Virus record (IMG/VR): IMGVR_UViG_3300001041_000017
Span: 16,058-80,057 of that record
DNA from: a virus
Reading direction: 5' to 3' (one strand)
Length of the DNA stretch: 64,000 nucleotides
The notes beneath the pieces were generated by a model. That model saw only the letters and a list, made by a program, of their open reading frames with translations, ran no database searches and had not been told where the DNA came from. The position numbers were made by a program, and so were the translations under genes. This document shows, in pieces, positions 3,137 through 60,303 of the stretch (position 1 is its first letter; every line of letters starts with the position of its first letter).

Positions 3137-3148
3137 GAGGGAAATAGA

Positions 3149-3784
3149 ATGTCTGATTTCGAAAGCGTTAAACTTGGCGTTTGTGATGTATTTATAATGC
3201 CAAAAAATCAAACTGTTGAAATAAACTTAGGTCTAACTCAGGGTGGTATAGAATTCACCTATAAGCCTGAATGGTTCGATGTTAAAGCGGATCAGTATGG
3301 AAATACCCCAATTGATTCAGTTCTCATTGGTGAGCAGGGATCAGCGAAAGTTCCGATGCTTGAAAGTACAGTCAAGAAAATGAAAATGGCTATGCCTACA
3401 TTCACGACTAAACCTGGGTCTACTACTGACAAACCGGGGTCTCTTCATTTTGGTAGAAAGCCCGGTCTAAGGGCTCAAGATCGATATATGAGATTACGAT
3501 TACATCCTATTTCAATGGCTGACACTGACTACAGCGAAGATATTATAATCTATCGGGCTGTAAATAAGGGAGAGGCAAAACTTGGTTTCACGTTTAATAA
3601 AGAAAGAATTATTGAGTGTACCTTTGATGCTTTCATAGATCCTACCAAGAAAAATGGAAGTATGTTATTCCAAATTGGGTCAGAAGGATTGAGTGGTACA
3701 TTCTTGGATCTTTCTACTGCTGCTGAAAATTCTCCAGAGTTTACTTCGACTGAAGACTTCGGACAGGAAATAATTGAAGATTAA
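3149..3784 (+). CDS. Major tail tube protein
   Basis: 211 residues with a strong binding site (GGAGGGAAA). The DVFIMPKNQTVEINLGLTQG opening, the GSAKVPMLEST segment and the RAVNKGEAKLGFTF strand near the end match Bacillota siphovirus tail tube proteins, which stack as hexamers to make the tail. It is followed by its own terminator, as expected for a very highly expressed structural gene, and then by the tail assembly chaperones, the standard order. Confidence 0.7.
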   Translation: MSDFESVKLGVCDVFIMPKNQTVEINLGLTQGGIEFTYKPEWFDVKADQYGNTPIDSVLIGEQGSAKVPMLESTVKKMKMAMPTFTTKPGSTTDKPGSLHFGRKPGLRAQDRYMRLRLHPISMADTDYSEDIIIYRAVNKGEAKLGFTFNKERIIECTFDAFIDPTKKNGSMLFQIGSEGLSGTFLDLSTAAENSPEFTSTEDFGQEIIED

Positions 3785-3794
3785 GAAAACATAA

Positions 3795-3829
3795 GGAATC
3801 GGAATAGAGATATTCTGGTTCCTTTTTTT
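3795..3829 (+). terminator. Rho-independent terminator after the tail tube gene
   Basis: A 12-bp stem containing two G-T wobbles (GGAATCGGAATA at 3795-3806 with TATTCTGGTTCC at 3811-3822) has a 4-nt loop and is followed by seven T. It probably lowers read-through into the chaperone and tape-measure genes. Confidence 0.8.
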
Positions 3830-3869
3830 ATGAAATTTATGAAATATAAATAATAGGAGGTTTTATTTT

Positions 3870-4313
3870 ATGTCTATTGGTGTAAGCAATCCTAAAATTC
3901 AGTATGTGGAATTGGACGATGATAAGAAGATCCCGATTAAGAAATTAGGGATCAAAAAATATGCTTTGATCTGCGGTTCCCTTAGAAAAATACTTAAAAA
4001 ACTATCAGAACAGGCAGAAAAAGCTAATCGGATTGAAAGTAACTCGAACTTGGTCTTTATTGACCTAATAATTGAGTTTATTGAGGAAAATACAGATCTG
4101 GTTATTGAGTTTGTTATGGATGCTGTTCCCGTCCTTGAGATTAACGACTTTGACGATCTTATAGGACTTTATGAATTGGTCAACATTGTTATAGCGGTTA
4201 TAGAGGTAAACAACCTATTCGCTATTGGTGAGAAGGTAAAAAAGTACCTGCCGGAACAGATGGAAGTACCGGAGGAAATGCTGAGAGACCTTCTGAAGAA
4301 TCAGAAAAAGTAG
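3870..4313 (+). CDS. Tail assembly chaperone, short form (gpG-like)
   Basis: 147 residues, strong AGGAGG site. The protein is mostly helical and acidic, as expected for the short tail assembly chaperone that coats the tape measure during tail assembly. Its position between tail tube and tape measure is diagnostic. The stop at 4311-4313 is bypassed by a -1 frameshift at 4238-4244 that would attach the following reading frame (see the site and the extension). Confidence 0.75.
   Translation: MSIGVSNPKIQYVELDDDKKIPIKKLGIKKYALICGSLRKILKKLSEQAEKANRIESNSNLVFIDLIIEFIEENTDLVIEFVMDAVPVLEINDFDDLIGLYELVNIVIAVIEVNNLFAIGEKVKKYLPEQMEVPEEMLRDLLKNQKK
4238..4244 (+). other. Programmed -1 ribosomal frameshift site A_AAA_AAG
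   Basis: The heptamer AAAAAAG sits with AAA (4239-4241) and AAG (4242-4244) as zero-frame codons, the canonical X_XXY_YYZ register for -1 slippage. The -1 frame is closed by TGA at 4229-4231 and opens only at 4232, so the slippery site lies just inside the short window where a shift is productive. After slippage the frame runs without interruption to 4687. Confidence 0.85.
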
Positions 4314-4687
4314 AAATTGATCCTAATTGGTATATAAAACTTGTAGGATTCATGGGTAGAGAGTACAACTATTCCCCAGATACAGTTGCAGAATTGTATC
4401 CTGGGGAAATTTTATGTTTGGTTAATGAGGCCAAACAAAGGAAAGAAGATGAGTTTAAATTAGAGGGAACCAAAAAGATAATAGAATATTTGTCATTAAT
4501 AAATATTCAGCATGGAGATCCAGAAGAAGTTAGGAGAGAATTATTAAAATCTCTGGAATCAGAGAGTCCATACTATAAGAAAGAAGAAAGAGATGAAGAA
4601 GGTTTTCAAAGATTAAAAGAAATGCAAGAAAGAATAAAAGAAACAAGTATAAGAGGAAGAGTAAATATAAAAATGGGTGGTGAATAG
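4244..4687 (+). CDS. -1 frame extension of the tail assembly chaperone (T part of gpGT)
   Basis: After the slip the ribosome reads about 147 more residues, giving a fusion of about 272 residues that begins at 3870. The first 25 residues are a Gly/Ser/Glu-rich linker (starting VPAGTDGSTGG), then the conserved-looking DPNWYIKLVGFMGREYNY block and an ELYPGEILCLVNEAKQRK helix. An ATG at 4352 exists but lacks a proper binding site, so independent translation is unlikely. In lambda and many siphoviruses the equivalent T domain recruits the tail tube protein to the tape measure. Confidence 0.8.
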   Translation, partial: VPAGTDGSTGGNAERPSEESEKVEIDPNWYIKLVGFMGREYNYSPDTVAELYPGEILCLVNEAKQRKEDEFKLEGTKKIIEYLSLINIQHGDPEEVRRELLKSLESESPYYKKEERDEEGFQRLKEMQERIKETSIRGRVNIKMGGE

Positions 4688-4688
4688 C

Positions 4689-7600
4689 TTGCCTACAAAT
4701 TACCTCTTACAAACAGAAGTAATAGCAGATGTAAATAATTTTAATACTGGTATGAGTCAGGCAGAAAAACAATTAATGTCTTTAGGTGCTGCTGGAATGG
4801 CACTTAATACGGTATTTACTAATTTACAAAGATCTATTTCAGCGTTTAACGCTAGTTTAAAGAATCTAAATAGTACAAGTTTCACAAACATACGAAGCAA
4901 TTTAAAAGCATTACAGACTTTAGGTAGGATTAATATACAAACAAAAGTAGATCATTCTGGGGTAGACCAAGTTATTACAAAACTTAAATCTGCTCATATG
5001 CTTAGAAATATCAATATTCAAACAAAAGTATATATGATTCCAGTAAACAATCTCATCACAAAATTAAAAACTGCCCATGCTTTAAATGATATAAGAATTA
5101 AAACTCAATCTGATAATAAAGGTGTTAATGATGTTGTAAAAAAATTAGATTCAATAAAAATATTATTAACCCATCCTATGGAATTGAGAATAAAAGCAGA
5201 ATTAACACCACTTAATTCTGTTGTAACAAAATTGATGGTTATTAAGAAATTATTAGAAGTTCCAATGAATCTTAGACTAAATGGAAGTCAGGCAAATTCA
5301 GTTTTCGCAAATATAAGAAGTTTATTCGCTGGAATGAGAGGAATAAGAATTGAGGCTGATAATTCAAGAATTGCAGAAACTTTAAGAGTTCTTAATCGAA
5401 TCATAATAGCAATAAATAAAATAAATGGTTCAAGGATTAGGGTAGATATTAACGGAAATCCATTAGGAGATTTAAGAAGAAGAACGGATCATGCAACAGA
5501 CGGAATTGAGGCTTTAAGAAATTCAGTCAGAAATTTAAAGAAAGATATGTATTTACTTGCCGGAGTAGGTTATATTTTCACTGGTGGGTGGATTTCTGAA
5601 AAACTATGGGAGGCTTTTGTTAAGCCTAATATGGAACTAGAAAAGATGAAAATATCTTTTGAAGTTCTTTTAAAGGATAAAGAAAAAGCAAAAACTTTGA
5701 TAGATTGGACCATAAAAGAAGCTGCGGTAAGTCCCTTTGAATCAAGAGGAATGCAGGACTTCGCTATGAAGATGTTAGGAGCTAATTTAGATCCAATTAA
5801 ACATTATCAGGTATTAAAAGATTTAGGAGCTTCACCTTCCCCATTAGGTTTGACTTCAGACCAGAACCTATCAGAGTTAGGTAGAATTATAGGATTAGCC
5901 TCCGGTGGTCAAATAGGTTTAGCTATGGACTCTATGGCATCCTTCTTTCCGGTAATAAGTCGTGCATCTATGAAACAATCGGCTGGATCTAAATTTGATA
6001 GCCAGAATCAGTATATGGGAGACTTTAAAGATTGGTTGGAAGATTTAAAAATAACTGTGGCAGATAGATTAGGTGGAATGTCAGAAAGAATAGGTAAAGA
6101 GACAGTATCGGGCAGATTAAGTACATTATCTGATATATATAATATTAGAAAGAAAGATATTGGGGATGTTAAATTATATGGATTAGTTTCATATGAAATA
6201 GAAAAATTAACAAAACTACTTTTAAGAGTTAAACCTGAAAATGTTGAAGCTATTGGTAAAGCTTTAGCCGACATGGTCAAGGTGGGATTAGAAGTTGTAA
6301 AAGTTTTCGGAGCGATTGTCTATTTATTTCTAATCAATTGGCAGACAATAAGATTTCCAATAGTAACAGCTACTTTTGCTTTAGTCGGTTTTTATACAGC
6401 CTCATTGTTAGTAGCTACTTTTAGGCCAATATTTGTTTTCCTAAGAATGTTGTACGCTGGATTTATGTCTTTAATAATAATTCAAAGGGCTAGATTTTGG
6501 TTAGTCTCATTTATGCTTACGGTAAATGGAACAGGACCTATTGCAGTATTATCGGCATTAATTCGTAGACTAGCTTTAGCTTTTGCATTCTTAAGATCTC
6601 AAATAGTAGCTCAAGGTTTATTAACCTTTTTAAGATCTTTTGGAAGGTTAGCCTTATCTTTATTGAATCCTATAAAATTACTAACATTAGGAGTTAAAGG
6701 TTTAGGGGCAGCATTTTCTTTTTTAACAACAGCTACAGGTCTAAGACTTATAATAATGTTGGCAGCAATAGCTATAGGTATTGCAGGGATGACAGGGATG
6801 CTTGACGGAATATTTGAAAAGTACCCAAGTTTGAAGGAATTCTTTGGTTTTAGTCCAGCATTTGCTAGTGATTTTGATTATGATGAAGCAGTTAAAAAAG
6901 CATTATCGGAACAAGATGAAGCTCTAAAGGGAAGTGACTTAACAAGTATTCCTGGATACCAAGAAAATGATATTACGGCAATAGCTTTAGCTATTAGGAC
7001 AACGAAAGAAAAATATGACGACATAAGAAATAGAATAATGAGTGAAAGAGACAGAGATTTAGAGAACTTAAAACAAAAAGATCCAGATGCAGAACAATCA
7101 GACGAGTATAAAAAAATTCAGCAAGAAGCTGACAAAAAACTTTTAGAAATAAACAAGAAACTTATAGACGAATTAAATGTTATTGGAGATAAAAAGACAT
7201 CCGATGAGGATAGAAATAAATTATTGGCAGCCATAGCAGAAACTCAAAAAGAATCAGCAGAATATTTGAATGACATAAAATATAACACGATGCAAAATCA
7301 ATATTCAGCTACGAAACAGCATGGAGATCTAGTAACATCCTTAGCTTCTGGTAAAAAAGACGTAGGGTTATTACAATACCTTGTCCAAAATCCTTTCGGA
7401 TTACGAGAAGAATCTCCAATGTATAGGCAATTAAGTAAAAATTATAGTATGGATATTATTGAATCGTTGAAGGATCAATTTAAAAGATTGACGGAGCAAA
7501 GAAATAAATTTGTAGATCAAGGTTATGGAGAAGGTAGCGATCAATTAATGCAAATTGATTTAGATCTTTTAAACGTCCAAAAAGAAGCTTTAGGACATTT

Positions 7601-7820
7601 GGATGAAATTAAAAAATCACTAAATCAAGGATCATTCAATCTTCCTTCAGGTATAAGTCCAATAACTTTGTACGATTACCATTCTGGCAAACCTGGTGGA
7701 ACTAGATCTATGACTTTTAAAGATTCTAAGTTTACCGTACAAGTTAAGCAATTAGCTGATATAGGTAATTCTTCATTTGAGGATGAGATTTCTAGGGCTG
7801 TAGCCCGATGGAGTGGATAA
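4689..7820 (+). CDS. Tape measure protein
   Basis: About 1043 residues from the favoured TTG start at 4689, preceded by GGTGGTGA; GTG at 4677 or 4680 is possible but poorly placed. This is the longest tail-core gene, in the standard slot after the chaperones, and its length sets tail length (roughly 150 nm by the usual 1.5 angstrom per residue rule). Residues about 75-260 contain some five or six degenerate units of about 30 residues with a repeated 'I-I-T-K...V--V--KL' pattern. Residues about 540-700 hold several hydrophobic segments that could enter the host membrane during DNA delivery, and the C-terminal third is a charged coiled-coil region. Confidence 0.9.
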   Translation: MPTNYLLQTEVIADVNNFNTGMSQAEKQLMSLGAAGMALNTVFTNLQRSISAFNASLKNLNSTSFTNIRSNLKALQTLGRINIQTKVDHSGVDQVITKLKSAHMLRNINIQTKVYMIPVNNLITKLKTAHALNDIRIKTQSDNKGVNDVVKKLDSIKILLTHPMELRIKAELTPLNSVVTKLMVIKKLLEVPMNLRLNGSQANSVFANIRSLFAGMRGIRIEADNSRIAETLRVLNRIIIAINKINGSRIRVDINGNPLGDLRRRTDHATDGIEALRNSVRNLKKDMYLLAGVGYIFTGGWISEKLWEAFVKPNMELEKMKISFEVLLKDKEKAKTLIDWTIKEAAVSPFESRGMQDFAMKMLGANLDPIKHYQVLKDLGASPSPLGLTSDQNLSELGRIIGLASGGQIGLAMDSMASFFPVISRASMKQSAGSKFDSQNQYMGDFKDWLEDLKITVADRLGGMSERIGKETVSGRLSTLSDIYNIRKKDIGDVKLYGLVSYEIEKLTKLLLRVKPENVEAIGKALADMVKVGLEVVKVFGAIVYLFLINWQTIRFPIVTATFALVGFYTASLLVATFRPIFVFLRMLYAGFMSLIIIQRARFWLVSFMLTVNGTGPIAVLSALIRRLALAFAFLRSQIVAQGLLTFLRSFGRLALSLLNPIKLLTLGVKGLGAAFSFLTTATGLRLIIMLAAIAIGIAGMTGMLDGIFEKYPSLKEFFGFSPAFASDFDYDEAVKKALSEQDEALKGSDLTSIPGYQENDITAIALAIRTTKEKYDDIRNRIMSERDRDLENLKQKDPDAEQSDEYKKIQQEADKKLLEINKKLIDELNVIGDKKTSDEDRNKLLAAIAETQKESAEYLNDIKYNTMQNQYSATKQHGDLVTSLASGKKDVGLLQYLVQNPFGLREESPMYRQLSKNYSMDIIESLKDQFKRLTEQRNKFVDQGYGEGSDQLMQIDLDLLNVQKEALGHLDEIKKSLNQGSFNLPSGISPITLYDYHSGKPGGTRSMTFKDSKFTVQVKQLADIGNSSFEDEISRAVARWSG

Positions 7821-7823
7821 TAA

Positions 7824-9116
7824 ATGTCTTTTACAGACTGTTTTAAATTATACAGAATAGATGATACATCTCCAACATATTCTGAAAACTTTGATTATGA
7901 ATCAGCTAAATTTGGAGATCAGAATCAAAATAATTTCATAGCAAATATGGGACATGGAACATTTTTTAAAGTAATAAAAGATGGCTATTTAACACAGGCC
8001 AAAGCTATTCTTAACTGTATATCGCAGGGAGGATACTTTAAATGTCTAGTTAATGTATACAAAACAGACGGTACTTCCTTAGAATATATTTCTTCTGCCG
8101 AAGCTATAAGATCAGTTACATCACCAGGAAAAGCGGATTTATGGATAAGTTTCGATAACCTTTATTTGTTGGAAGGAACTTATTATATAGCACTCTGGCC
8201 GGATGTCTCTACCTCCCCAGCAAACGGTTGGCAGATTTTAGCTGCAACAGGAAGTGTTGAAGAAACAGAATATATAGAAAAACCAGAAACATTAATCGGT
8301 GGATTTAATGGTAGTGGAATTTCTCAATCTGGAGCATACATTACAGAATATTTTGATCATTATTGTATTGTAGAAATACTTATGGGAAATATAACGGCTG
8401 GCTCATCCTCTTCTTCTGAAGACTGGAATATTGTCACAGGTTCTTCTTGGGAAACGGGAGTTCCTTGGAGTATTCTAAAAAGTAAAGAAAAAGAAATAGG
8501 ATCTAGATGTGTTTATACGCAGGAAAAAACATTTAACAAACCTGGAGTTGTTAAATTTACAAGAAGAATTTTTGTTAATTTAAAAGAAACAAATAATCAA
8601 AAAAGTAAACTTAGTTTTTTCATAGATGGAATATTAAAAGTATCATGGAAAGGAATTCACCCTTGGGAATTGTTTGATACCTATTTTATATTTCCTGCCG
8701 GAGAACATACTTTTACTTGGATTTTTGAAATAGAAGAAGAGGGGTCTTACGCAGAACTTGGATTAATAGAGTATTATAAGTTTCCCCCATTGAATGATAT
8801 AGAAATAATGGAGTATAAACCTGGAAGACCAGAAATAGTTATGGCTGAGACTTCGGTTATAGACGGTTTTTCTGGGTGGCAACGGGGAGCATATAAAGGT
8901 ACTGTTTTCAGTATGAAATTATACATATATGAAAACGATGCTTATTTGGACTTTATAAAAAATCTGGACAAGGCTTATATATGGGTAGATGAATTATGTA
9001 TCCCATATGTAGGCGTTTTCGTTCTGGAAGATGATATAAGTAAAATTGGGGCTAACTGTGCTTATATTGTCTCTTGCAAGCTACACTGTCCTCAAATGGC
9101 AGGTGTAGGAGCATGA
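7824..9116 (+). CDS. Distal tail (Dit-like) protein with carbohydrate-binding-like insert
   Basis: 430 residues. It follows the tape measure, the usual slot of the distal tail protein that forms the ring at the tail tip. The N-terminal part (residues about 1-150) is a beta-rich domain with the look of a galactose-binding fold (KVIKDGYLTQAKAIL, YIALWPDVS); the last 110 residues (YKPGRPEIVMAETSV to the end) carry the tail-tip-type beta structure. It overlaps the next gene by four bases (ATGA). The Dit call rests mostly on position. Confidence 0.6.
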   Translation: MSFTDCFKLYRIDDTSPTYSENFDYESAKFGDQNQNNFIANMGHGTFFKVIKDGYLTQAKAILNCISQGGYFKCLVNVYKTDGTSLEYISSAEAIRSVTSPGKADLWISFDNLYLLEGTYYIALWPDVSTSPANGWQILAATGSVEETEYIEKPETLIGGFNGSGISQSGAYITEYFDHYCIVEILMGNITAGSSSSSEDWNIVTGSSWETGVPWSILKSKEKEIGSRCVYTQEKTFNKPGVVKFTRRIFVNLKETNNQKSKLSFFIDGILKVSWKGIHPWELFDTYFIFPAGEHTFTWIFEIEEEGSYAELGLIEYYKFPPLNDIEIMEYKPGRPEIVMAETSVIDGFSGWQRGAYKGTVFSMKLYIYENDAYLDFIKNLDKAYIWVDELCIPYVGVFVLEDDISKIGANCAYIVSCKLHCPQMAGVGA

Positions 9117-40140: not shown

Positions 40141-40164
40141 TAATATCAAAATATCTTGATATTA
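40141..40164. promoter_or_regulatory. Probable operator upstream of integrase
   Basis: Perfect inverted repeat TAATATCAA (40141-40149) and TTGATATTA (40156-40164) separated by six bases. The half-site TAATATCAAA recurs at 42331-42340 in the repressor control region, so the two places may bind the same regulator. Confidence 0.5.
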
Positions 40165-40185
40165 TTTACATTAGGGGGAATTTAT

Positions 40186-41775
40186 TTGAAAGAAAATCAT
40201 ATACCTCCTCATTTGAGAATGGCAAATTATAAAGAGCAAAAAAGAAATTCTGACAAAGAATCAGACAAGAGTTTAATTAAGCTTCAGGGATATGTCAGGA
40301 TTTCTACAAAAAAAGAAGCTCAAAAAACATCTCTAGAATTTCAGGAAAAGCTATTAAAAGAATGGTGTGAAGTTCATGGATATCAATATGCTGGAACGGT
40401 TTTTGATATAAAATCTGGGGCATATATGAATTCAAGGACCGGTATTCAAGATCTTTTAGAGATGGCTAAGAATGAAGAAATTCACGGATTAATAACCAAG
40501 GAGGTTTCAAGAACCTCCAGAGATATTCAAGACATAATTCAGTTAAAAAGAAAACTCTCTGATTATGGAGCCTTCTTAATTTCAATAAAGGAGGGTTACG
40601 ACAGTAGATCGGATAACGATGAATTTTTGTTAACTATTTATGCAGCAATAGCCCAGAAAGAAAGAACCACTATTGGGAGTAGGTTGAAGACTACGCAACT
40701 AATAAAGGCCAGGAATGGTAGACCGAATAATAGGCCAGCTTTCGGATACCGAATATCAGAAGATAAAACCAGATATGAACCCTGCCCAATACATACTCCA
40801 ATCTATAAAGAGATAGTAGATATGTTTCTGTCTGGGAAGGGTAAGAATGCTATTTGTAGAGAGTTGAATGGAAGAGGGTTAAAAACATACCTTGGATCTA
40901 AATTCTCCTCTCTAACGATAGATACAATCCTTAGAAACCCGGTCTACATCGGAACGTATATGTATAACACTTCATATTGTTTCCGTGATGCAGAGGGTAA
41001 AAAACAGAGGGTTATTAGACCTCAGAACGAATGGATAGTCAGAGAAAATAATCACGAATCCTTAATAGAAAACTTAACCTGGGAATCTATACAAGAGTCA
41101 TTGGATAAGCGTAAAATAGATAAGAAATATACTGTTGATAAAAAATATTTACTAACCGGTAATTTAATTTGTTCAAGATGCGGATCTAAAATTTATGGAA
41201 AGATTCATTCTAGAACTAGGAAAGATGGATCGCGTCCTGTTTATTATTTATGTTATAATGAGTTCGGAAACTGTCATTTACCGTATACCAGAAAAGAAAT
41301 AATTGAGGATATGGTAAAAGAACATTTAACAAAAATAATTTACGATCCGGAAATTCTGAGAGATGAAATAAATAATCAGAAAAATATTATGGACGTAAAT
41401 AATTCAGATCTTGTCCAAAGAAGAGAAATTATTCAGAAGGAATTATCCGATATCGAAAAAGCTATGAATAAACAATTTGTGGCCTACGAAAAGGATATAA
41501 TTGATGTAGATACTTATGGTAAAAGAATTAAAGAATTAAAACAAAACAAACTAATTTTAGAGGAAGAATTATCTGTCCTGGAGAAGAAGTTAAGGAAAAC
41601 TGATCGGATGGATAATAAGACAGAAATACTTTTCAGAGAAATAAAACAACTGTTGGATTTAGAAAAAAATCCTGATGTTGCTGAATTAGCCCTAGGTTTA
41701 TTTGTAGATAAGATATATGTAGACTATAAGAAAGACAAATTAATTTTGAAGTATAAATATACTTTTCAAGAGTGA
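40186..41775 (+). CDS. int: Large serine integrase
   Basis: About 529 residues from TTG 40186 (TAGGGGGAA upstream). The N-terminal resolvase domain has the catalytic serine at about residue 40 (GYVRIST), then EVSRTSRD and the IAQKERTTIGSR helix. A recombinase domain follows (GKGKNAICRELNGRGLKT, RNPVYIGTYMYN), then a zinc ribbon (LICSRCGSK ... CHLPYTRKE) and a long coiled coil (residues about 400-480). These proteins integrate phage DNA site-specifically between short attP and attB sites. A fitting attP lies just downstream. Confidence 0.92.
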   Translation: MKENHIPPHLRMANYKEQKRNSDKESDKSLIKLQGYVRISTKKEAQKTSLEFQEKLLKEWCEVHGYQYAGTVFDIKSGAYMNSRTGIQDLLEMAKNEEIHGLITKEVSRTSRDIQDIIQLKRKLSDYGAFLISIKEGYDSRSDNDEFLLTIYAAIAQKERTTIGSRLKTTQLIKARNGRPNNRPAFGYRISEDKTRYEPCPIHTPIYKEIVDMFLSGKGKNAICRELNGRGLKTYLGSKFSSLTIDTILRNPVYIGTYMYNTSYCFRDAEGKKQRVIRPQNEWIVRENNHESLIENLTWESIQESLDKRKIDKKYTVDKKYLLTGNLICSRCGSKIYGKIHSRTRKDGSRPVYYLCYNEFGNCHLPYTRKEIIEDMVKEHLTKIIYDPEILRDEINNQKNIMDVNNSDLVQRREIIQKELSDIEKAMNKQFVAYEKDIIDVDTYGKRIKELKQNKLILEEELSVLEKKLRKTDRMDNKTEILFREIKQLLDLEKNPDVAELALGLFVDKIYVDYKKDKLILKYKYTFQE

Positions 41776-52245: not shown

Positions 52246-53379
52246 TTGAAGAAAATAAAGATACCCAGAAAAGAAAAGATCCTTCTTGTTAAACCAGTAT
52301 TCAAATTCATACCTTTAGCTTTAATGAAATTAAGTACTTATCATAAGGGTTTAGGAGATATTGTTGAATATACAGAAGGAATAAGAAGTAAGTTAAAATA
52401 TTATGATAAAATTTATATAACATCACTTTTTACCTGGGAATACAGAAAAGTAATAGATGCAATTAATACCTATAAATTCAGAACAGATGAATTAATAGTT
52501 GGTGGACATTTAACAACTTTTGCTCCAGAACTAATTGAATCTCTTGTCAAATATTCTCCTAACAAAATAACCTATCATCAAGGATTGTATTATGAAGAAG
52601 TAGACAGATCTAAGATTGATTACAGTATATTTAATTTAAACTATTCAATAGCAACAGCCACAAAAGGATGTATAAGAAAATGTGGTTTCTGCGGTGTAAA
52701 ATATTTAGAACCAAATTACATTGACTACATCCCAATAAAACCTCAGATAGACGAAACAAGACAACATCTTCAGCTTTGGGGTAATAATGATTTTGCAAGT
52801 AGTAAATTTGATAGGATAATTGAGGAATTAATTTCATTAGGATTTCATAAAGGGGCTAAAATGAATAATCGGCAAAGATATGTAGACTTTAATCAAGGAA
52901 CAGATTGTAGATTATTCAACAAAGAAATAGCCAAATTGGTTTCAAAAGTGAACATTTACCCATTAAGATTTTCATTCGATTCTATGAAAGAAGATGTATA
53001 TTTCCAAAATGCTATAAAACTAGCTGCGAAGTTTGGAATAAAGACTTTTAGTTCTTATATTCTTTATAATTGGAAAGATACTCCCGAAGAATTTTACTAT
53101 AGATGTAGAGAAATAGTAGAATTAAGTAAGGAATTAGATTTAAGAATTTCTGGTTTCCCTATGAAATACATTCCAGTAAATCATTTAGATAGGACTTATG
53201 TTTGTGATAAATGGACAAAGCATAATTTGAATATGATAAGAGTTATAACAATTGCTACAAGAGGTATGTTACCCATGAAATTAGAAACATTCAAAGTTTA
53301 TTTCGGTAAGAATGAAAAAGAGTTCGTTAATTTAATTAATTCAAGCGAAGACTATATCAGGAATAGATTGAAAGGGTGA
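52246..53379 (+). CDS. Radical SAM enzyme with B12-binding-like N-terminus
   Basis: 377 residues, TTG directly after the recombinase stop. The 4Fe-4S ligands are C142, C146 and C149 (ATKGCIRKCGFCGVKY). The first 110 residues resemble a cobalamin-binding-type fold (ILLVKPVFKFIPLALMKL, IYITSLFTWEY, LIVGGHLTTFAPE). A TIM-barrel region follows (DCRLFNKEI, LRFSFDSM, SYILYNWKDTPEEF). It is larger and different from QueE. The substrate is unknown; presence in a block with DpdA-like and methylase genes suggests nucleic-acid or nucleotide modification, but this is inference. Confidence 0.75.
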   Translation: MKKIKIPRKEKILLVKPVFKFIPLALMKLSTYHKGLGDIVEYTEGIRSKLKYYDKIYITSLFTWEYRKVIDAINTYKFRTDELIVGGHLTTFAPELIESLVKYSPNKITYHQGLYYEEVDRSKIDYSIFNLNYSIATATKGCIRKCGFCGVKYLEPNYIDYIPIKPQIDETRQHLQLWGNNDFASSKFDRIIEELISLGFHKGAKMNNRQRYVDFNQGTDCRLFNKEIAKLVSKVNIYPLRFSFDSMKEDVYFQNAIKLAAKFGIKTFSSYILYNWKDTPEEFYYRCREIVELSKELDLRISGFPMKYIPVNHLDRTYVCDKWTKHNLNMIRVITIATRGMLPMKLETFKVYFGKNEKEFVNLINSSEDYIRNRLKG

Positions 53380-53383
53380 TAAA

Positions 53384-53662
53384 ATGAATATTATAAAATA
53401 CGGCGTAGTTGGTGTTTATCAAGAAATAAGAAAAACAGATATTATACTTTTTGTTTATAGTAAAAAAACTTCTGAATTATTTAGAATAAATATTGAGATA
53501 CCCATTAAGAAATTCAGAAACTTATTAAAGAGAATCAAAGATGATGAGAAATTTATAAAGTTTGATGATAGAGTTACTTGTAGAATAATTGATGGATATT
53601 ATCAGCTTTATTATCAAGGTTCAGAATTCAACTTTGAATTAGAAGTGTTGAATAAGATATAA
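53384..53662 (+). CDS. Hypothetical protein (92 aa)
   Basis: 92 residues with GGGTGATAA upstream, between the radical SAM and SbcD-like genes; its stop shares a base with the next start. Beta-rich first half (YGVVGVYQEIRKTDIILFVY) then a helix and more strands. No family recognised; the tight coupling suggests an accessory to one of its neighbours. Confidence 0.5.
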   Translation: MNIIKYGVVGVYQEIRKTDIILFVYSKKTSELFRINIEIPIKKFRNLLKRIKDDEKFIKFDDRVTCRIIDGYYQLYYQGSEFNFELEVLNKI

Positions 53663-54417
53663 TGGGAGACTACTTAATAATATCTTCAGACTGGCATTTA
53701 GGAAAGCCAGGAGAGATAGACAGAACTCCAAACATAATAAAATCAGTAAGACAGTCGATAGATAGAGCGACATTATTAAAAAGAAAAGGAAATAAAGTAG
53801 TTTACCTAATGGCCGGAGATATGTTTGACGGAAACAATCCTACTCCTAAACTAATCTCCGAAGCTATTAAACTACTTAACAAATTAGAACGTAACATGGT
53901 TCCTACAGTAGTAATAGTAGGAAACCATGAAACTATCTCTCAGAAGGGCAAGAAACATGCTCTAGAACCACTACAAGCTGTTGGATATGAGAATGTTTCG
54001 ATAGTAGATAAAGTAGAATTAATAGAGAAACTAAAACTAAATGTCATATGTATTCCCCATATGACAAAAGCAAGGGTTAAAGAATTAGGTTTCGATAGTG
54101 TTAAAAAGTACATCAAGAAAGAATGTCTAAGATTAATCAGAGACTATATTATTTATTTGCATAGCCCAACAATTGTTCTTTCTCACCATATGATTAGCGG
54201 AGTAAAGTTAAATTTCTCAGAGGAAGAATATATAGATGATGAAAAAGTATTTCCAGAATTTTTACTTAACAACGAAAGAATAAAATATATAATAAATGGA
54301 CATATTCATAAACCTCAAATGTTTGGAAACATAATAATCCCAGGTTCTATAGAATGTATGGACTTTGGAGAGAGAAACGATATTAAATGTTATGTGGAGG
54401 TGAAGTTAAATGATTAA
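53662..54417 (+). CDS. sbcD: SbcD/Mre11-like nuclease (gp47-like)
   Basis: 251 residues. All metallophosphoesterase motifs are visible: SSDWHLG, AGDMFDG, VGNHET, LSHH and NGHIHKPQ. It is shorter than bacterial SbcD because the C-terminal capping domain is minimal. With the SbcC-like ATPase at 57174 it should form the complex that processes DNA ends and hairpins. Six genes separate the two subunits, unlike the usual adjacent arrangement. Confidence 0.85.
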   Translation: MGDYLIISSDWHLGKPGEIDRTPNIIKSVRQSIDRATLLKRKGNKVVYLMAGDMFDGNNPTPKLISEAIKLLNKLERNMVPTVVIVGNHETISQKGKKHALEPLQAVGYENVSIVDKVELIEKLKLNVICIPHMTKARVKELGFDSVKKYIKKECLRLIRDYIIYLHSPTIVLSHHMISGVKLNFSEEEYIDDEKVFPEFLLNNERIKYIINGHIHKPQMFGNIIIPGSIECMDFGERNDIKCYVEVKLND

Positions 54418-55031: not shown

Positions 55032-55469
55032 ATGATAGGTGATTCTGTAATGAAAATAGCGTTAATAAGTTGCTCAAAATCTAAATTGAATATGGAGTGT
55101 AAAGCAAGAATACTATATTCTCCTTCGATACTATTTACAAAAGCAAGAAATCATGTCGAATCAAGTTTTAGTATATACTACATTCTTTCAGCTAAACATG
55201 GACTACTTGATCCAGACAAGATAATTAAACCATATGATAAATCGTTATTCAATTTAACAAACAAAGAAAGAAAAGATTGGGCTAACTTAGTATGTAAAGA
55301 AATAATAGAAAAACATCCTAATCTAAAATATGTGGATATTTATGCTGGAAAGCTATACAGAGTACATTTAATCAAACTACTAGAAAAACACGGAATCAAG
55401 TGTAATGTACCATTGCAAGGTTTAGGAATAGGCCAGCAGCTAAACTTTTATAAAACAGAGGGTTTTTAA
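55032..55469 (+). CDS. DUF6884-like protein, probable partner of the DpdA-like enzyme
   Basis: 145 residues; an internal ATG at 55050 (giving MKIALISCSKSK) with AGGTGA upstream is an equally good start. Motifs: LISCSKSKL at the start, ARILYSPSILFTKARNHVE, YILSAKHGLLDPDKIIKPYD, and a final GLGIGQQLNFY. These are the hallmarks of the DUF6884 family, seen in phages and, as I recall, often near TGT-like genes. It lies three bases from the DpdA-like gene, so they probably act together in base modification. Confidence 0.65.
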   Translation: MIGDSVMKIALISCSKSKLNMECKARILYSPSILFTKARNHVESSFSIYYILSAKHGLLDPDKIIKPYDKSLFNLTNKERKDWANLVCKEIIEKHPNLKYVDIYAGKLYRVHLIKLLEKHGIKCNVPLQGLGIGQQLNFYKTEGF

Positions 55470-55472
55470 AAG

Positions 55473-56285
55473 TTGATACTTTATATTTCTAAGACAGGAA
55501 ATAAGATGTCTGGAAAACTTTTAAGACAAGAATTCTTTTGCAAACATATTTGTATTAGTCCTCACTATAAAGTTTGGATGGACAATCCCAAAGCAAGTAT
55601 ATTATTGGACTCAGGAGCATTTCAAGACAGAGGAAAAGAGGATCGGTTATCTTTCAAAGATGCTTTAGCAAGACAATTAAAGCATGAAAAGAAAATGAAT
55701 TTTATATCTCAAAGAATTGTTTCTTACGATTACATAGGAAATGTAGAAGAAACATTGAAAGCTAATAAATTCTTGATAAGAAGAAGAGAGGAATTAAGTC
55801 CTAGGCAGCTAGTATTAACCTGTCAAGGAAATACGATTAAAGAGTATATTTATTGCATTATAGAAACATTGAAAATGATGGATCGAAAAGATTGTCTAGG
55901 AATTGGGGGTAATGCTCTAGCTGGGAAAGATAAAGGTGTTAGAAAGAAACTTTTAGACATCTTTAAGTTTGGAATACCTCTAATTCTAAACAAAGGAATA
56001 AAACAGATACATATATTCGGTGTAGCCACTTTCGATATATTAAAGGAGATAAGATATTACTTAAATATCTTTGAAATGATGGGATATCGAAACGCTAATA
56101 AATTAAGAATCAGTGTAGACTCATCAACCTATGAAATACAATCAACTTTGGGAAAAGTAATAAATATGGAATTAGAAAAGTGGGAAAAGATATATTATAA
56201 GGAAGATAAGTTCGTTAATTATCATCCGGCAGACTTAGCTATTGAAAATATGAAACGTGGAATGAAAATTATTAAAAATATATAA
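55473..56285 (+). CDS. dpdA: DpdA-like (TGT-family) DNA 7-deazaguanine transglycosylase
   Basis: 270 residues, TTG start. TGT-family signatures are visible: D46 in ILLDSGAFQDRG (equivalent to the DSGG(F/Y)Q general-base motif), YDYIGNV, CLGIGGNALAG (141-151), HIFGVATFD (180-188) and a conserved Asp216 in RISVDSSTYE that suits the nucleophile. The tRNA-TGT zinc site (CxCxxC) is absent and the protein is shorter, as in DpdA. Family members exchange guanine for a 7-deazaguanine in DNA, protecting phage DNA from restriction. No queC, queD or queE is visible here, so the precursor must come from the host or from genes outside the window. Confidence 0.7.
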   Translation: MILYISKTGNKMSGKLLRQEFFCKHICISPHYKVWMDNPKASILLDSGAFQDRGKEDRLSFKDALARQLKHEKKMNFISQRIVSYDYIGNVEETLKANKFLIRRREELSPRQLVLTCQGNTIKEYIYCIIETLKMMDRKDCLGIGGNALAGKDKGVRKKLLDIFKFGIPLILNKGIKQIHIFGVATFDILKEIRYYLNIFEMMGYRNANKLRISVDSSTYEIQSTLGKVINMELEKWEKIYYKEDKFVNYHPADLAIENMKRGMKIIKNI

Positions 56286-56299
56286 GGAGATGAATTTAT

Positions 56300-56581
56300 T
56301 TGATAACTAGACTTAAAGAAGAACCTAGACCTGGAGAATTATATAGGCATTTCAAAACTAAAAATATTTACGTTGTTTTAGACGTTGGAAATCATACAGA
56401 AAACAAAGAAAGACTTGTAAGTTACACAGAAATAAATTCTCCAATAAATAAAGAACCATACAAGAGACCTCTAGAAATGTTTATGACTTACATAACAAAC
56501 TACGATCATAAATTTCATAGATTTGAAAAAGTAAATCCATTTTTATTATTAGAAAGTCTAAACAAGAATGAAAAACCATAA
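56300..56581 (+). CDS. DUF1653-family protein
   Basis: 93 residues, TTG start with AAGGAGATG. The pattern 'PGELYRHFKTKNIYVVLDVGNHTENKE' in outline, followed by RLVSYTEI, KRPLEMFMTYI and HRFEKV, matches the short DUF1653 domain common in phages and bacteria. Biochemical function is unknown. It overlaps the methylase start by 14 bases and so is co-translated with it. Confidence 0.7.
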   Translation: MITRLKEEPRPGELYRHFKTKNIYVVLDVGNHTENKERLVSYTEINSPINKEPYKRPLEMFMTYITNYDHKFHRFEKVNPFLLLESLNKNEKP

Positions 56582-57170
56582 ATACGGCGTAATATACGCC
56601 GATCCTCCGTGGCAATACAATAATTACAACTATAAGAAAACGAAAGACGGAAAGAAAGCTAAACGAGGCTGCCGTAAAGAATATAACGTAATGAATATTG
56701 AAGAAGTTAAGAAACTACCAGTCAGAGAAATAGCAGACGAAAACTGTATCCTTTTTTTATGGATTACCTTTCCCCACTTAGAAGAGGCTATGGACGTAAT
56801 CAGGTCATGGGGTTTTGAGTATAAGACTGTAGGATTCGTATGGGTTAAACTTAATAAGAAATCTAAATCATTATTCTGGGGAATGGGAACTAAAACTCGC
56901 TCTAATTCAGAAGTTTGTCTTATTGGAGTTAAAGGTAAACCTAAAAGAGTTTCTGGGGCTGTCCACTCTGTAGTCATAGAAAAAATAGGAGATAAGCATA
57001 GTAGTAAGCCGAAAGAAGTAAGAAGAAGAATTGATAAGCTTATGGGTGATGAAGTAAAGAAAATAGAGTTATTTTCTAGATTAAGTGATGTTCCTGGCTG
57101 GCATCATTGGGGCAGAGAATGCAAATGTAATATAAGAGGATTTAACCGCAAAAAGAAGGTGAAGTACTAG
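56568..57170 (+). CDS. MT-A70-type adenine-N6 methyltransferase
   Basis: 200 residues. The catalytic DPPW lies at residues 12-15 (YADPPWQYNNY), followed by YNVMNIEEVKKLPV, ENCILFLWITFP and the SAM-binding region (VCLIGVKGKPKRV, HSSKPKEVRRRID, VKKIELFSR). MT-A70 phage enzymes methylate adenine in DNA at short sites, and usually protect against restriction. Together with the DpdA-like enzyme it would give two layers of base modification. Confidence 0.85.
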   Translation: MKNHKYGVIYADPPWQYNNYNYKKTKDGKKAKRGCRKEYNVMNIEEVKKLPVREIADENCILFLWITFPHLEEAMDVIRSWGFEYKTVGFVWVKLNKKSKSLFWGMGTKTRSNSEVCLIGVKGKPKRVSGAVHSVVIEKIGDKHSSKPKEVRRRIDKLMGDEVKKIELFSRLSDVPGWHHWGRECKCNIRGFNRKKKVKY

Positions 57171-57173
57171 AAT

Positions 57174-59342
57174 ATGATCCTACAAACAATAGGCTGCCAA
57201 AACTTCGGTCCATTCAAGGACTGGAATGAAATAGAGATACCCCAACAAGGGGTTATTTCTATTATCGGAGAATGGAAAGGTCAGAAATCAAGAAGTAACT
57301 GGTCAGGGAAATCTAGTTTTATAGAAATGATAACTTACCTACTTTACGGAAAACACAGAAACAAATCAGACAAAGATCTAATTCATAACAACGCCTCAGA
57401 AGATATGATAGTGAAAGGAACTTTCTTATTAGAAGACGGTTCCCAGATATCAATAACAAGAGGAAAATCATTATCTGGTGATTTAATTTTAGAAGTTGAA
57501 GGATACGAAGGTGAACATAAAAAAGATGTCCAAGAATACCTAAACGAATTAACAGGTTTAGAGTATGAAGACTTTATAAACACATCCTTTTTCCTTCAAG
57601 GAGATATTCACGGAATAGCTACATCCACAAGCAGTAAATTAAAAGAAAAGTTTTCTAGATGGATAAATAATTCTCATTGGGACGACTACTTAGAAACAAC
57701 AAAAGAGTTTATTAAAGGATTGGAAAAAGTAATAAATGAAGTTAATTATGAAATAAACATAATTCAAAAAAAGAAAGACAATTTAGATGAATTGAAATCA
57801 TCTTTGAAAGATTTAAGAGAAGAAAAGGAATTATTATCGTTTGACTTAGAAGGTCTAACAGGTGTAGAAAGCCAGTTAAAGGCTGAATTAAAGAAGATAA
57901 AGGATATGGGTGACGACGACTACCTTCAAACTGAATATAACCATATTCTGAACATTATAGAGGATCTAAAACAAGACAACAAGGAATTATCTGAAAAGAA
58001 AGAGGAAATAGAAGAAAGGTATCAGACAGGATTAAATACTCAGAAAAAGATTAAAAAGATGAAATCTGAACTAAAGGAATATGACAAAATATCATCCTGG
58101 TATGAAGAATTAAAAACACGGCTTGAAAAATACCAAGAGAAATATTTAACAGCCAAAAACTCTATTACCAGAATAAACAAAGAGATTAGAAAAATAGCAG
58201 ACTCAAACGGAGTCTGTCCTTACAAAAATGAAAAATGTAAATACATCTCTATTGATGATATGTTGAATGAATTGAACAAAGAAATAAAAGAGTATTACGG
58301 AATAGAAGACAAAATGATCGAAAAGTTAGATGATGTAAAGAGAGAATTATCAGAAACAGAAAAACATCTTAATAATCTGAGATACATAAAAGGTCAGTTA
58401 AAAACTATTGAAAATATTTCAATTACTACTCTGTCCGACAAAGAAAAGCAAATCAAAAATTGTTCAATAAAAATTAAGAAAAACATCTCTCTAATAAAAG
58501 ATCACAAATCCAAGTTAGAAGAAATAGAAGAAAAGTTATCTCTCCTGGAGGATGACAAGCAAGAGGAAATAGAAAACAAGTTTAAGGAAAACCAAAAAGA
58601 TATTAAGAAACTTAGGCAAAAAATAAATTCATTAACAGAGGAAATCGGTAGTCTTAAAAATCAAATATCAAACATAAAAGAAGAGTCTAAAAAGATTCCA
58701 GACCTAGAAGAAAGTCTACAGGAATTAAAAGAAGAATTACAACAATATCAGTTTCTACAATTTGCATTCGGGAAAGACGGAATAAAGTCTTTCCAGTTTG
58801 AGTCAGCATTCGAAGAAATAGAAATTCAGGTAAACAAAATATTGGACAAATTAGAAACAGATATGTCTCTGGAATTCTCTTCGGTAAAAGAATTGAACGA
58901 CTGGGAAAAGAATTGTCCGGTTTGTGGATGTCTATTTGAGAGTAGGCAGAAACAATGTCCAGAGTGTAGTTGTGAGAGGGGTAAACGGAAGAAAGACGAA
59001 CTATCTATGAGGTTTTATAATGGAGAGTCTGAAATGGAGTTCACACAAGCTTCTGGAGGACTTAAAGTAATACTTAGTTTAGCTATTCGGTTAGCTATAT
59101 CTAATTTGAAAAGAAATAAAAGTGGGAGTAAGGTAGACTTTGTGATTTTAGACGAAATCTTTAGTAATTTAGACAGTATAAATCAGGAATTAGTTTTGAA
59201 ATTAATAAAAAAAGTGATGCTGAAAAATTTAGGTATCAAGCAAATATTTATTATAAGTCATAGATCTGAAATTAGTACATCGTTTGAAAATATTATCAAA
59301 ATTAAAAAGTATGATTCATATTCTACTTTTGGTTGGAGTTGA
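57174..59342 (+). CDS. sbcC: SbcC/Rad50-like ATPase (gp46-like)
   Basis: 722 residues. N-terminal Walker A region is GEWKGQKSRSNWSGKSSF (residues about 32-49), with long coiled coils (about 180-540) interrupted by a cysteine pair (GVCPYKNEKCKYI, near 345) at the expected hook. The signature motif ASGGLKVILSLAIRLA (near 625), Walker B VDFVILDEIFSNLDS and the IISHR switch follow. An extra four-cysteine ribbon (NCPVCGCLF ... QCPECSCERG, about 580-602) lies just before the signature motif. It partners the SbcD-like nuclease. Confidence 0.85.
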   Translation: MILQTIGCQNFGPFKDWNEIEIPQQGVISIIGEWKGQKSRSNWSGKSSFIEMITYLLYGKHRNKSDKDLIHNNASEDMIVKGTFLLEDGSQISITRGKSLSGDLILEVEGYEGEHKKDVQEYLNELTGLEYEDFINTSFFLQGDIHGIATSTSSKLKEKFSRWINNSHWDDYLETTKEFIKGLEKVINEVNYEINIIQKKKDNLDELKSSLKDLREEKELLSFDLEGLTGVESQLKAELKKIKDMGDDDYLQTEYNHILNIIEDLKQDNKELSEKKEEIEERYQTGLNTQKKIKKMKSELKEYDKISSWYEELKTRLEKYQEKYLTAKNSITRINKEIRKIADSNGVCPYKNEKCKYISIDDMLNELNKEIKEYYGIEDKMIEKLDDVKRELSETEKHLNNLRYIKGQLKTIENISITTLSDKEKQIKNCSIKIKKNISLIKDHKSKLEEIEEKLSLLEDDKQEEIENKFKENQKDIKKLRQKINSLTEEIGSLKNQISNIKEESKKIPDLEESLQELKEELQQYQFLQFAFGKDGIKSFQFESAFEEIEIQVNKILDKLETDMSLEFSSVKELNDWEKNCPVCGCLFESRQKQCPECSCERGKRKKDELSMRFYNGESEMEFTQASGGLKVILSLAIRLAISNLKRNKSGSKVDFVILDEIFSNLDSINQELVLKLIKKVMLKNLGIKQIFIISHRSEISTSFENIIKIKKYDSYSTFGWS

Positions 59343-59346
59343 TTAG

Positions 59347-60303
59347 TTGTCTAAGAAAATAAAATATGCTAAAAATACAGGTGTTTCAGTATGGGAATTA
59401 AAAGAAAGATTGAAACTTCCTTTAGAAATTAAGATAAATATGTCTATCCAGAGAATAATTCAATGGTATGAGTATTACAACGGAAATGTTTATATTTCTT
59501 TTAGTGGGGGTAAGGACAGTACCGTTCTAAATCATCTAGTAAGAAGTATTTATCCAAATGTTCCTGCCGTGTTTTCTAACACTGGTTTGGAATTTCCTGA
59601 GATAGTATCATTTGTTAGAGAGACAGATAATGTAATTTGGGTTTAACCCAAATTACACTTTAAAGAGATTTTAGATAGATACGGCTATCCAGTGATTAGT
59701 AAAGAAAACGCTAGAAAAATACATGATCTACAAAATCCAACAGAGAATAATAAAAGAACAATATCCTTGAGAATGGGATTAGAACCAAGTAGAAATGGAA
59801 AATTTAATGTCGGGATGGTCCCTTTGAAGTGGCAATATTTAAAAGACGCTCCATTTAAAATAAGTGATGCTTGTTGTGAAGTTATGAAGAAAAGACCATT
59901 TAAAATTTATGAGAAAGAACAAGGTAGAAAACCGTTTATAGGTTCAATGGTTTCTGAAAGTAGATTTAGGATGAATAATTATATAAGAAATGGCTGTAAT
60001 GCTTTTAATTTAGACAGACCTTTCAGTATTCCGATTTCTTTCTGGACAGAAGAGGATGTTTGGGAGTATATTAGAATTTTTAATGTACCATATTCAAGAA
60101 TATATGATATGGGATATGATAGAACTGGTTGTGTTTTCTGTCTTTTTGGAACACATTTAGAGCAAAAAAGAGGATTAAATCGTTTTCAAAGAATGTATTC
60201 AACACATCCAAGTCTATGGAAATTCTGTATGAACAAATTAGGATTAAAAGATGTATGTAAATATGTAGGTATTAAAACTATGCCGAGGAAGGTGAAATAT
60301 TGA
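59347..60303 (+). pseudogene. PAPS-reductase/adenine-nucleotide alpha hydrolase-like gene interrupted by an in-frame TAA
   Basis: TTG start at 59347 with GGAG eight bases upstream. The PP-loop SFSGGKDST and NTGLEFPEI are in the first 99 residues. The frame then meets TAA (59644-59646) and continues in the same frame without shift as PKLHFKEILDRYGYPVISKE and on to 60303 (CCEVMKKRPFKIYEKE, RTGCVFCLFG). The intact product would be about 318 residues, the size of phage PAPS-reductase-like proteins, which activate substrates with ATP and sometimes act in sulfur or base modification. The stop replaces what is probably a Lys codon. A second start at 59692 lacks a good binding site. Pseudogene, read-through or recoding cannot be told apart here. 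Confidence 0.7.
59631..59657. repeat. Perfect 27-bp palindrome centred on the TAA stop
   Basis: Arms TGTAATTTGGGTT (59631-59643) and AACCCAAATTACA (59645-59657) are exact inverted copies around the single base T59644, which is the first base of the in-frame stop. With A at the centre the codon would read AAA (Lys). Confidence 0.95.

Follow-up and report, generated by a model that had tools for sequence, protein, structure and literature searches.

In an 80,057-bp virus record, a gene for a short DUF6884 protein lies immediately upstream of one for a predicted DpdA-type DNA transglycosylase, and we think it fairly probable that the two enzymes form a 7-deazaguanine DNA-modification module in which preQ0 is inserted by DpdA and then turned into dADG by DUF6884 through hydration of the nitrile. 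As a phage 7-deazaguanine island the locus is ordinary in kind; what is new is a divergent DpdA clade together with a candidate role for DUF6884.

The window analysed here is a stretch of 64,000 nucleotides, bases 16058–80057 of the record. Its island comprises four plus-strand open reading frames, flanked by SbcD- and SbcC-like genes (Table 1). The ORFs for DUF6884, DUF1653 and MT-A70 all score above their Pfam cut-offs, and together with the TGT-like ORF they confirm the four-gene set proposed in an earlier sequence-only reading. That reading described the genes as mostly overlapping; in fact the DpdA-like gene is separated from DUF6884 by 3 bp and from DUF1653 by 14 bp, and the sole overlap, of 14 bp, joins DUF1653 to MT-A70.

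Table 1. Genes of the island and nearby features, in window coordinates
Feature	Position	Strand	Matches and remarks
Large serine recombinase	40156–41775		Resolvase, recombinase and zinc-ribbon domains; suggests a temperate phage
Radical SAM protein	52246–53379		phrog_9298, 9.2e-45; weak B12-binding-like N-terminus; about 3 kb upstream of the island
SbcD-like	53662–54417		Flanks the island
DUF6884 protein, 145 aa	55032–55469	+	PF21818, 1.6e-41; predicted DpdC-like finishing enzyme for DNA-borne preQ0
DpdA-like DNA-guanine transglycosylase (predicted), 270 aa	55473–56285	+	TTG start 3 bp after DUF6884
DUF1653 small protein, 93 aa	56300–56581	+	PF07866, 2.5e-13; neighbour, probably outside the modification step
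MT-A70 adenine-N6 DNA methyltransferase (predicted), 200 aa	56568–57170	+	PF05063, 1.4e-30; phrog_359 DNA methyltransferase, 2.4e-74
SbcC-like	57174–59342		Flanks the island
PAPS-reductase-like	59347–60303		PF01507 in both halves; split by a single in-frame TAA at 59644–59646, frame open on either side

Structure and profile evidence support the identification of the TGT-like protein as a DpdA-type DNA transglycosylase. The ORF has no Pfam match (PF01702 included), no meaningful NCBIfam match and one marginal PHROG match ("queuine TGT", E 0.083); tblastn against 50,697 phage records (E 1e-5) returned nothing. An AlphaFold2 model built from a 36-sequence alignment reached pLDDT 95.1 and pTM 0.92, and its best 15 PDB matches in Foldseek are all TGT-family proteins, including 7ui4, "DNA preQ0 insertase DpdA"; a model from the single sequence was poor (pLDDT 49.6), and its fold search returned TIM barrels mixed with TGTs. 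When the PDB was searched with the family sequence profile, 7ui4 was the best match (E 0.0019), with an archaeosine TGT behind it (0.3). A phiFN37-type phage DpdA HMM, trained with the clade excluded, finds the window clade at E 1.4e-6, and in a profile–profile comparison this clade matches a set that contains 9g-type DpdAs with a probability of 93.8% (E 1.7e-7). Both Salmonella phage 7-11 (1.5e-20) and MED16 (1.2e-11) have DpdAs that a joint profile picks up. BLASTP of the window DpdA against the phiFN37 TGT gave no direct match, and its hhalign alignment to E. coli TGT alone was weak.

The DSGAFQ, IGGNA and DSST motifs singled out by the sequence-only reading are present in the ORF, and conservation across 36 divergent sequences marks them as real catalytic positions rather than chance resemblances: D46, S47, G48, D86, G145 and H180 are invariant, and D216 is conserved in at least 90%. 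Among 12 clade members D46, D86, Q118, G145-G146 and D216 are invariant; we take these to be the equivalents of D102, D156, Q203, G229-230 and D280 of Z. mobilis TGT. The CxCxxC zinc motif of tRNA TGTs is absent, the conserved cysteines being C27 and C128 (C141 nearly so). In alignments H180 falls opposite H196 of the 9g-type DpdA of JenP2, and histidine 196 is a feature of DpdA that is absent in DpdA2 (PMC6884629). Fold, catalytic positions and gene linkage thus agree with the earlier pairing of a DNA transglycosylase with DUF6884.

Relatives were reached through the neighbouring gene. Single-sequence scans of viral contigs with DpdA, DUF6884 and the radical SAM protein gave no matches, but alignment queries did find relatives. 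A scan with a DUF6884 alignment returned 80 viral loci, in three of which DUF6884 is followed immediately by a close DpdA-like relative, and a scan with the DpdA clade returned 11 viral loci and two archaeal MAG contigs (L107 and L108, one of them titled Thermoplasmata; the L108 copy has neither DUF6884 nor YhhQ beside it). With the window's own, the clade comprises 12 viral records and the two archaeal contigs. The branch that sets it off from other phage DpdAs measures 3.9 changes per column and has an SH-aLRT support of 100%, and the clade-specific profile does not match the transglycosylases of the characterised phages compared (7-11, MED16, HVTV-1 and CP220). On this sequence evidence the clade stands as a separate DpdA subfamily among those compared. 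Its assignment to DpdA2, or to the HVTV-1/CP220 transglycosylases, was rejected because the clade profile finds none of them. Two further subfamilies, DpdA3 and DpdA4, were reportedly defined in a 2023 paper; CP220 and HVTV-1 are presumably their carriers, and it is through these alone that the clade is set apart from DpdA3 and DpdA4.

Gene order around the clade varies. DUF6884-DpdA-YhhQ is found in L098, L100 and L103 and also in L008/L097, YhhQ-DpdA-DUF6884 in L099, and QueD-QueE-QueC-DUF6884-DpdA in L096. In 5/12 viral clade records DUF6884 is not near DpdA; these loci (L101, L102, L104, L105 and L106, with L105 and L106 near-copies of each other) have DpdA-YhhQ and offer a natural contrast for the contribution of DUF6884. 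In L103 an AdoMet decarboxylase gene (1825–2193; PF02675, 3.2e-17) comes right after the trio, and next to it lies a gene for a ribonucleotide reductase that contains an intein-like insertion. The full run in L096 (IMGVR_UViG_3300025000_000061, 3144–8682) begins with an N6/N4 methylase and ends with a Mom homologue (PF25680, 8.5e-44), so genes for G and A modification do cluster.

Precursor supply distinguishes the window's record from the rest of the clade. The sequence-only reading found no preQ0 synthesis genes in the window and suggested looking for queC/D/E/F beyond it; the absence extends to the full 80,057-bp record, which may be incomplete. Across that record there is no QueC, QueD, FolE, QueF, YhhQ, QueT or tRNA TGT, and no QueE was recognised, the radical SAM proteins seen being NrdG and an unrelated B12-type protein. 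This makes it the sole viral member among 12 with neither precursor synthesis nor a transporter: a YhhQ-type queuosine-precursor transporter is adjacent to DpdA in 10/11 of the others, and the eleventh, L096, has QueD-QueE-QueC just upstream of DUF6884. Because all 11 carry one or the other, preQ0/preQ1 is the likely substrate class of the clade. For a record without synthesis genes or transporter the simplest reading is that the precursor is host-made, and the earlier proposal that the host queuosine pathway is tapped is accordingly probable. A host-made precursor has likewise been proposed for HRTV-29 (PMC8651126) and for 7-11.

DUF6884 is recurrently linked to DpdA. A DpdA-like gene lies within about 2 kb in 37/87 DUF6884 loci, in 26 of these 37 at 500 bp or less and on the same strand, and both gene orders occur. 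Some of the 87 loci are identical copies; among dereplicated proteins, with three added from the clade scan, 35/79 DUF6884s are DpdA-linked, and this linkage changes 13 times on the DUF6884 tree. QueC or YhhQ is present in 32/37 DUF6884 loci with DpdA vs. 2/50 without, and in several phages (e.g., L018, L050, L054 and L082) DUF6884 sits between QueC and QueD/QueE/FolE. Gene neighbourhood thus places DUF6884 in the same predicted pathway as DpdA, often inside a preQ0 operon. Gat-QueC (the dG+ enzyme) occurs in 48 of 80 loci with 9g-type DpdA and DUF6884 in 0, whereas QueC in DUF6884 loci with DpdA is always plain, with no Gat fusion. The contrast hints that DUF6884 could be an alternative finishing enzyme to Gat-QueC, and it is suggestive only, since the 80 9g-type loci are phylogenetically narrow. 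In the literature that could be searched, outside which the later DpdA-subfamily papers lie, we found no paper that names the recurrent pairing, and DUF6884 appears by name only in the Pfam update and the GATOR-GC preprint.

The sequence-only reading held that DUF6884 has no assigned chemistry. Its relationships to DpdC and YaaA revise that view. C14 and K18 (CxxxK), I51-L52-S53-A54, Y68 and Y109 are invariant, and the Pfam description relates the family to YaaA and regards CxxxK plus LSAxxG as its likely active site (PMC11701544). PADLOC DpdC models match 23/24 DpdA-linked DUF6884s (best 7.2e-9) over about 70 of 310 model positions; the window's own DUF6884 falls short of E 0.1. DUF6884s without DpdA match DpdC equally well (19/20), so this homology is unspecific to modification loci. 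PF03883 (YaaA) matches 20/24 DpdA-linked DUF6884s, and a PDB search with the DUF6884 profile returned YaaA 5caj at E 1.1 only, amid noise. The dpdC gene carries DUF6884 (PMC11888242), and DpdC, which has been tied to DUF328/YaaA, turns dPreQ0 into dADG (PMC12839542). The same base has been reported in the DNA of 7-11 and MED16 (PMC6884629, PMC8306585). DUF6884 was rejected as the source of dADG in 7-11, MED16, nt-1, HVTV-1 and CP220, none of which encodes it; dADG does not require DUF6884 and must arise otherwise in these phages.

In the mechanism we propose, D216 of the DpdA-like enzyme would attack the phage DNA at the deoxyribose C1' of certain guanine nucleotides, releasing guanine, and the enzyme would insert a host-made 7-deazaguanine, most likely preQ0. 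DUF6884, as a short enzyme of the DpdC/YaaA superfamily, would then act on the inserted base, hydrating the nitrile to yield dADG. Its cysteine may form a thioimide on the preQ0 nitrile that is hydrolysed to the amide; a Cys-thioimide on this nitrile has been shown for QueF and QueF-L (PMC5485725). Part of the G would thereby be replaced and the DNA would resist host restriction, with MT-A70 adding adenine methylation independently.

Several other readings of the island were weighed. DpdA may insert a 7-deazaguanine in DNA while the DUF6884 product is something other than dADG (an ArcS-like amidine, an amino-acid adduct or another 7-substituent). We hold this to be unlikely while giving it some weight: DUF6884 is distant from DpdC and a much shorter, stand-alone domain, it is absent from all ten sampled DpdA/7-deazaguanine phages, whose chemistry is either known or closely related (for seven, 7-deazaguanine or DNA-base chemistry has been published), and ArcS provides a precedent for lysine transfer to preQ0 (PMC11298593). 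Against it, DpdC is the nearest DUF6884 relative with assigned chemistry, and the B12/radical SAM gene at 52246, a potential RaSEA-like partner, has no counterpart in the loci related by the DpdA clade; a pairing of ArcS with this radical SAM protein was rejected for that reason. A broader proposal casts DUF6884 as an enzyme with which viruses in general finish DNA 7-deazaguanines, an alternative to Gat-QueC, QueF-L and ArcS, and has the pair in the divergent clade make a 7-substituted guanine undescribed in DNA; we regard this as speculative and doubtful. A role for DUF6884 in lesion binding or repair, like that of YaaA/YfjM, in which it merely travels with DpdA, is improbable. Pfam's link to YaaA and its report connecting YfjM of B. 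subtilis with abasic and RNA lesions (PMC11701544) would suit such a role, as would the 50/87 DUF6884 loci without DpdA of these subfamilies, but its position among the Que genes of the four phages named above argues against it, as do the occurrence of either gene order in the pairing with DpdA and the separate positions of the paired members on the DUF6884 tree.

Modification of tRNA rather than DNA, of queuosine or archaeosine type, seems quite improbable. The protein has a TGT fold and its best Foldseek matches by E-value are tRNA TGTs, but its closest solved sequence relative is DpdA, it is just 270 aa long and lacks the zinc motif, it retains the H196-type histidine of phage DpdA, and YaaA, a superfamily member of its DUF6884 partner, binds DNA. 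We give very little credence to the four-gene pathway of the sequence-only reading, in which DUF1653 and MT-A70 would also act and one step might be undescribed. The genes are adjacent in the window, and L096 also adjoins an N6/N4 methylase and a Mom homologue; against this, none of 13 related DpdA-clade loci has an MT-A70 homologue, and DUF1653 recurs in only two near-identical ones, 4 kb away. Since neither is conserved beside the DpdA clade, both look like unrelated neighbours, probably separate from the G modification: DUF1653 would be incidental, and MT-A70 probably methylates adenine independently of the 7-deazaguanine module.

The proposed DpdA–DUF6884 module resembles several known systems in part. 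DpdAs of 9g/CAjan-type phages (Nonagvirus, Seuratvirus; PHROG 887) share with the window DpdA the TGT fold family, DSGAF, D86, GG, the H196-type histidine and the D-S-S nucleophile motif; unlike the window, these phages carry FolE-QueD-QueE-(Gat-)QueC and lack DUF6884, and their DpdA is undetectable from the window clade by tblastn in 50,697 phage records. The DpdA singletons of 7-11 and Pantoea phage MED16, of similar size with open frames of 250 and 270 aa, likewise occur in phages without preQ0 genes, but DUF6884 is in neither genome and the clade-specific profile misses both DpdAs. The bacterial Dpd system offers the best solved sequence relative of the window DpdA (7ui4) and a homologue of DUF6884 in DpdC, although DUF6884 aligns to only part of the 310–319-residue DpdC models; no DpdB or restriction genes DpdD-K were noticed among the annotated neighbour genes of the island. 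Halorubrum tailed virus 29 and Fusobacterium phage phiFN37 have DUF6884 (annotated "YaaA" or "hypothetical") directly beside DpdA/TGT, as in the window, and phiFN37 also has a queuosine precursor transporter, but their DpdAs belong to other subfamilies than the window clade. YaaA (DUF328) and YfjM are placed in the same superfamily as DUF6884 by the Pfam paper (PMC11701544); unlike DUF6884, they have no link to base exchange, and YaaA is about twice as long.

The identity of the phage enzyme that makes dADG is a question raised in the literature, where it has been asked what oxidises preQ0 in phage 7-11 (PMC6884629) and how dG becomes dADG (PMC8306585). Although 7-11 and MED16 must be explained in another way, DUF6884 is by its gene neighbourhood a strong candidate for this step, found beside DpdA in at least 32 non-identical viral loci and in 0 of the 80 nearest 9g-type loci. 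The analysis also brings in a DpdA subfamily that escapes standard profiles, and it gives DUF6884, a Pfam family of unknown function, a functional frame in the form of a well-supported candidate role.
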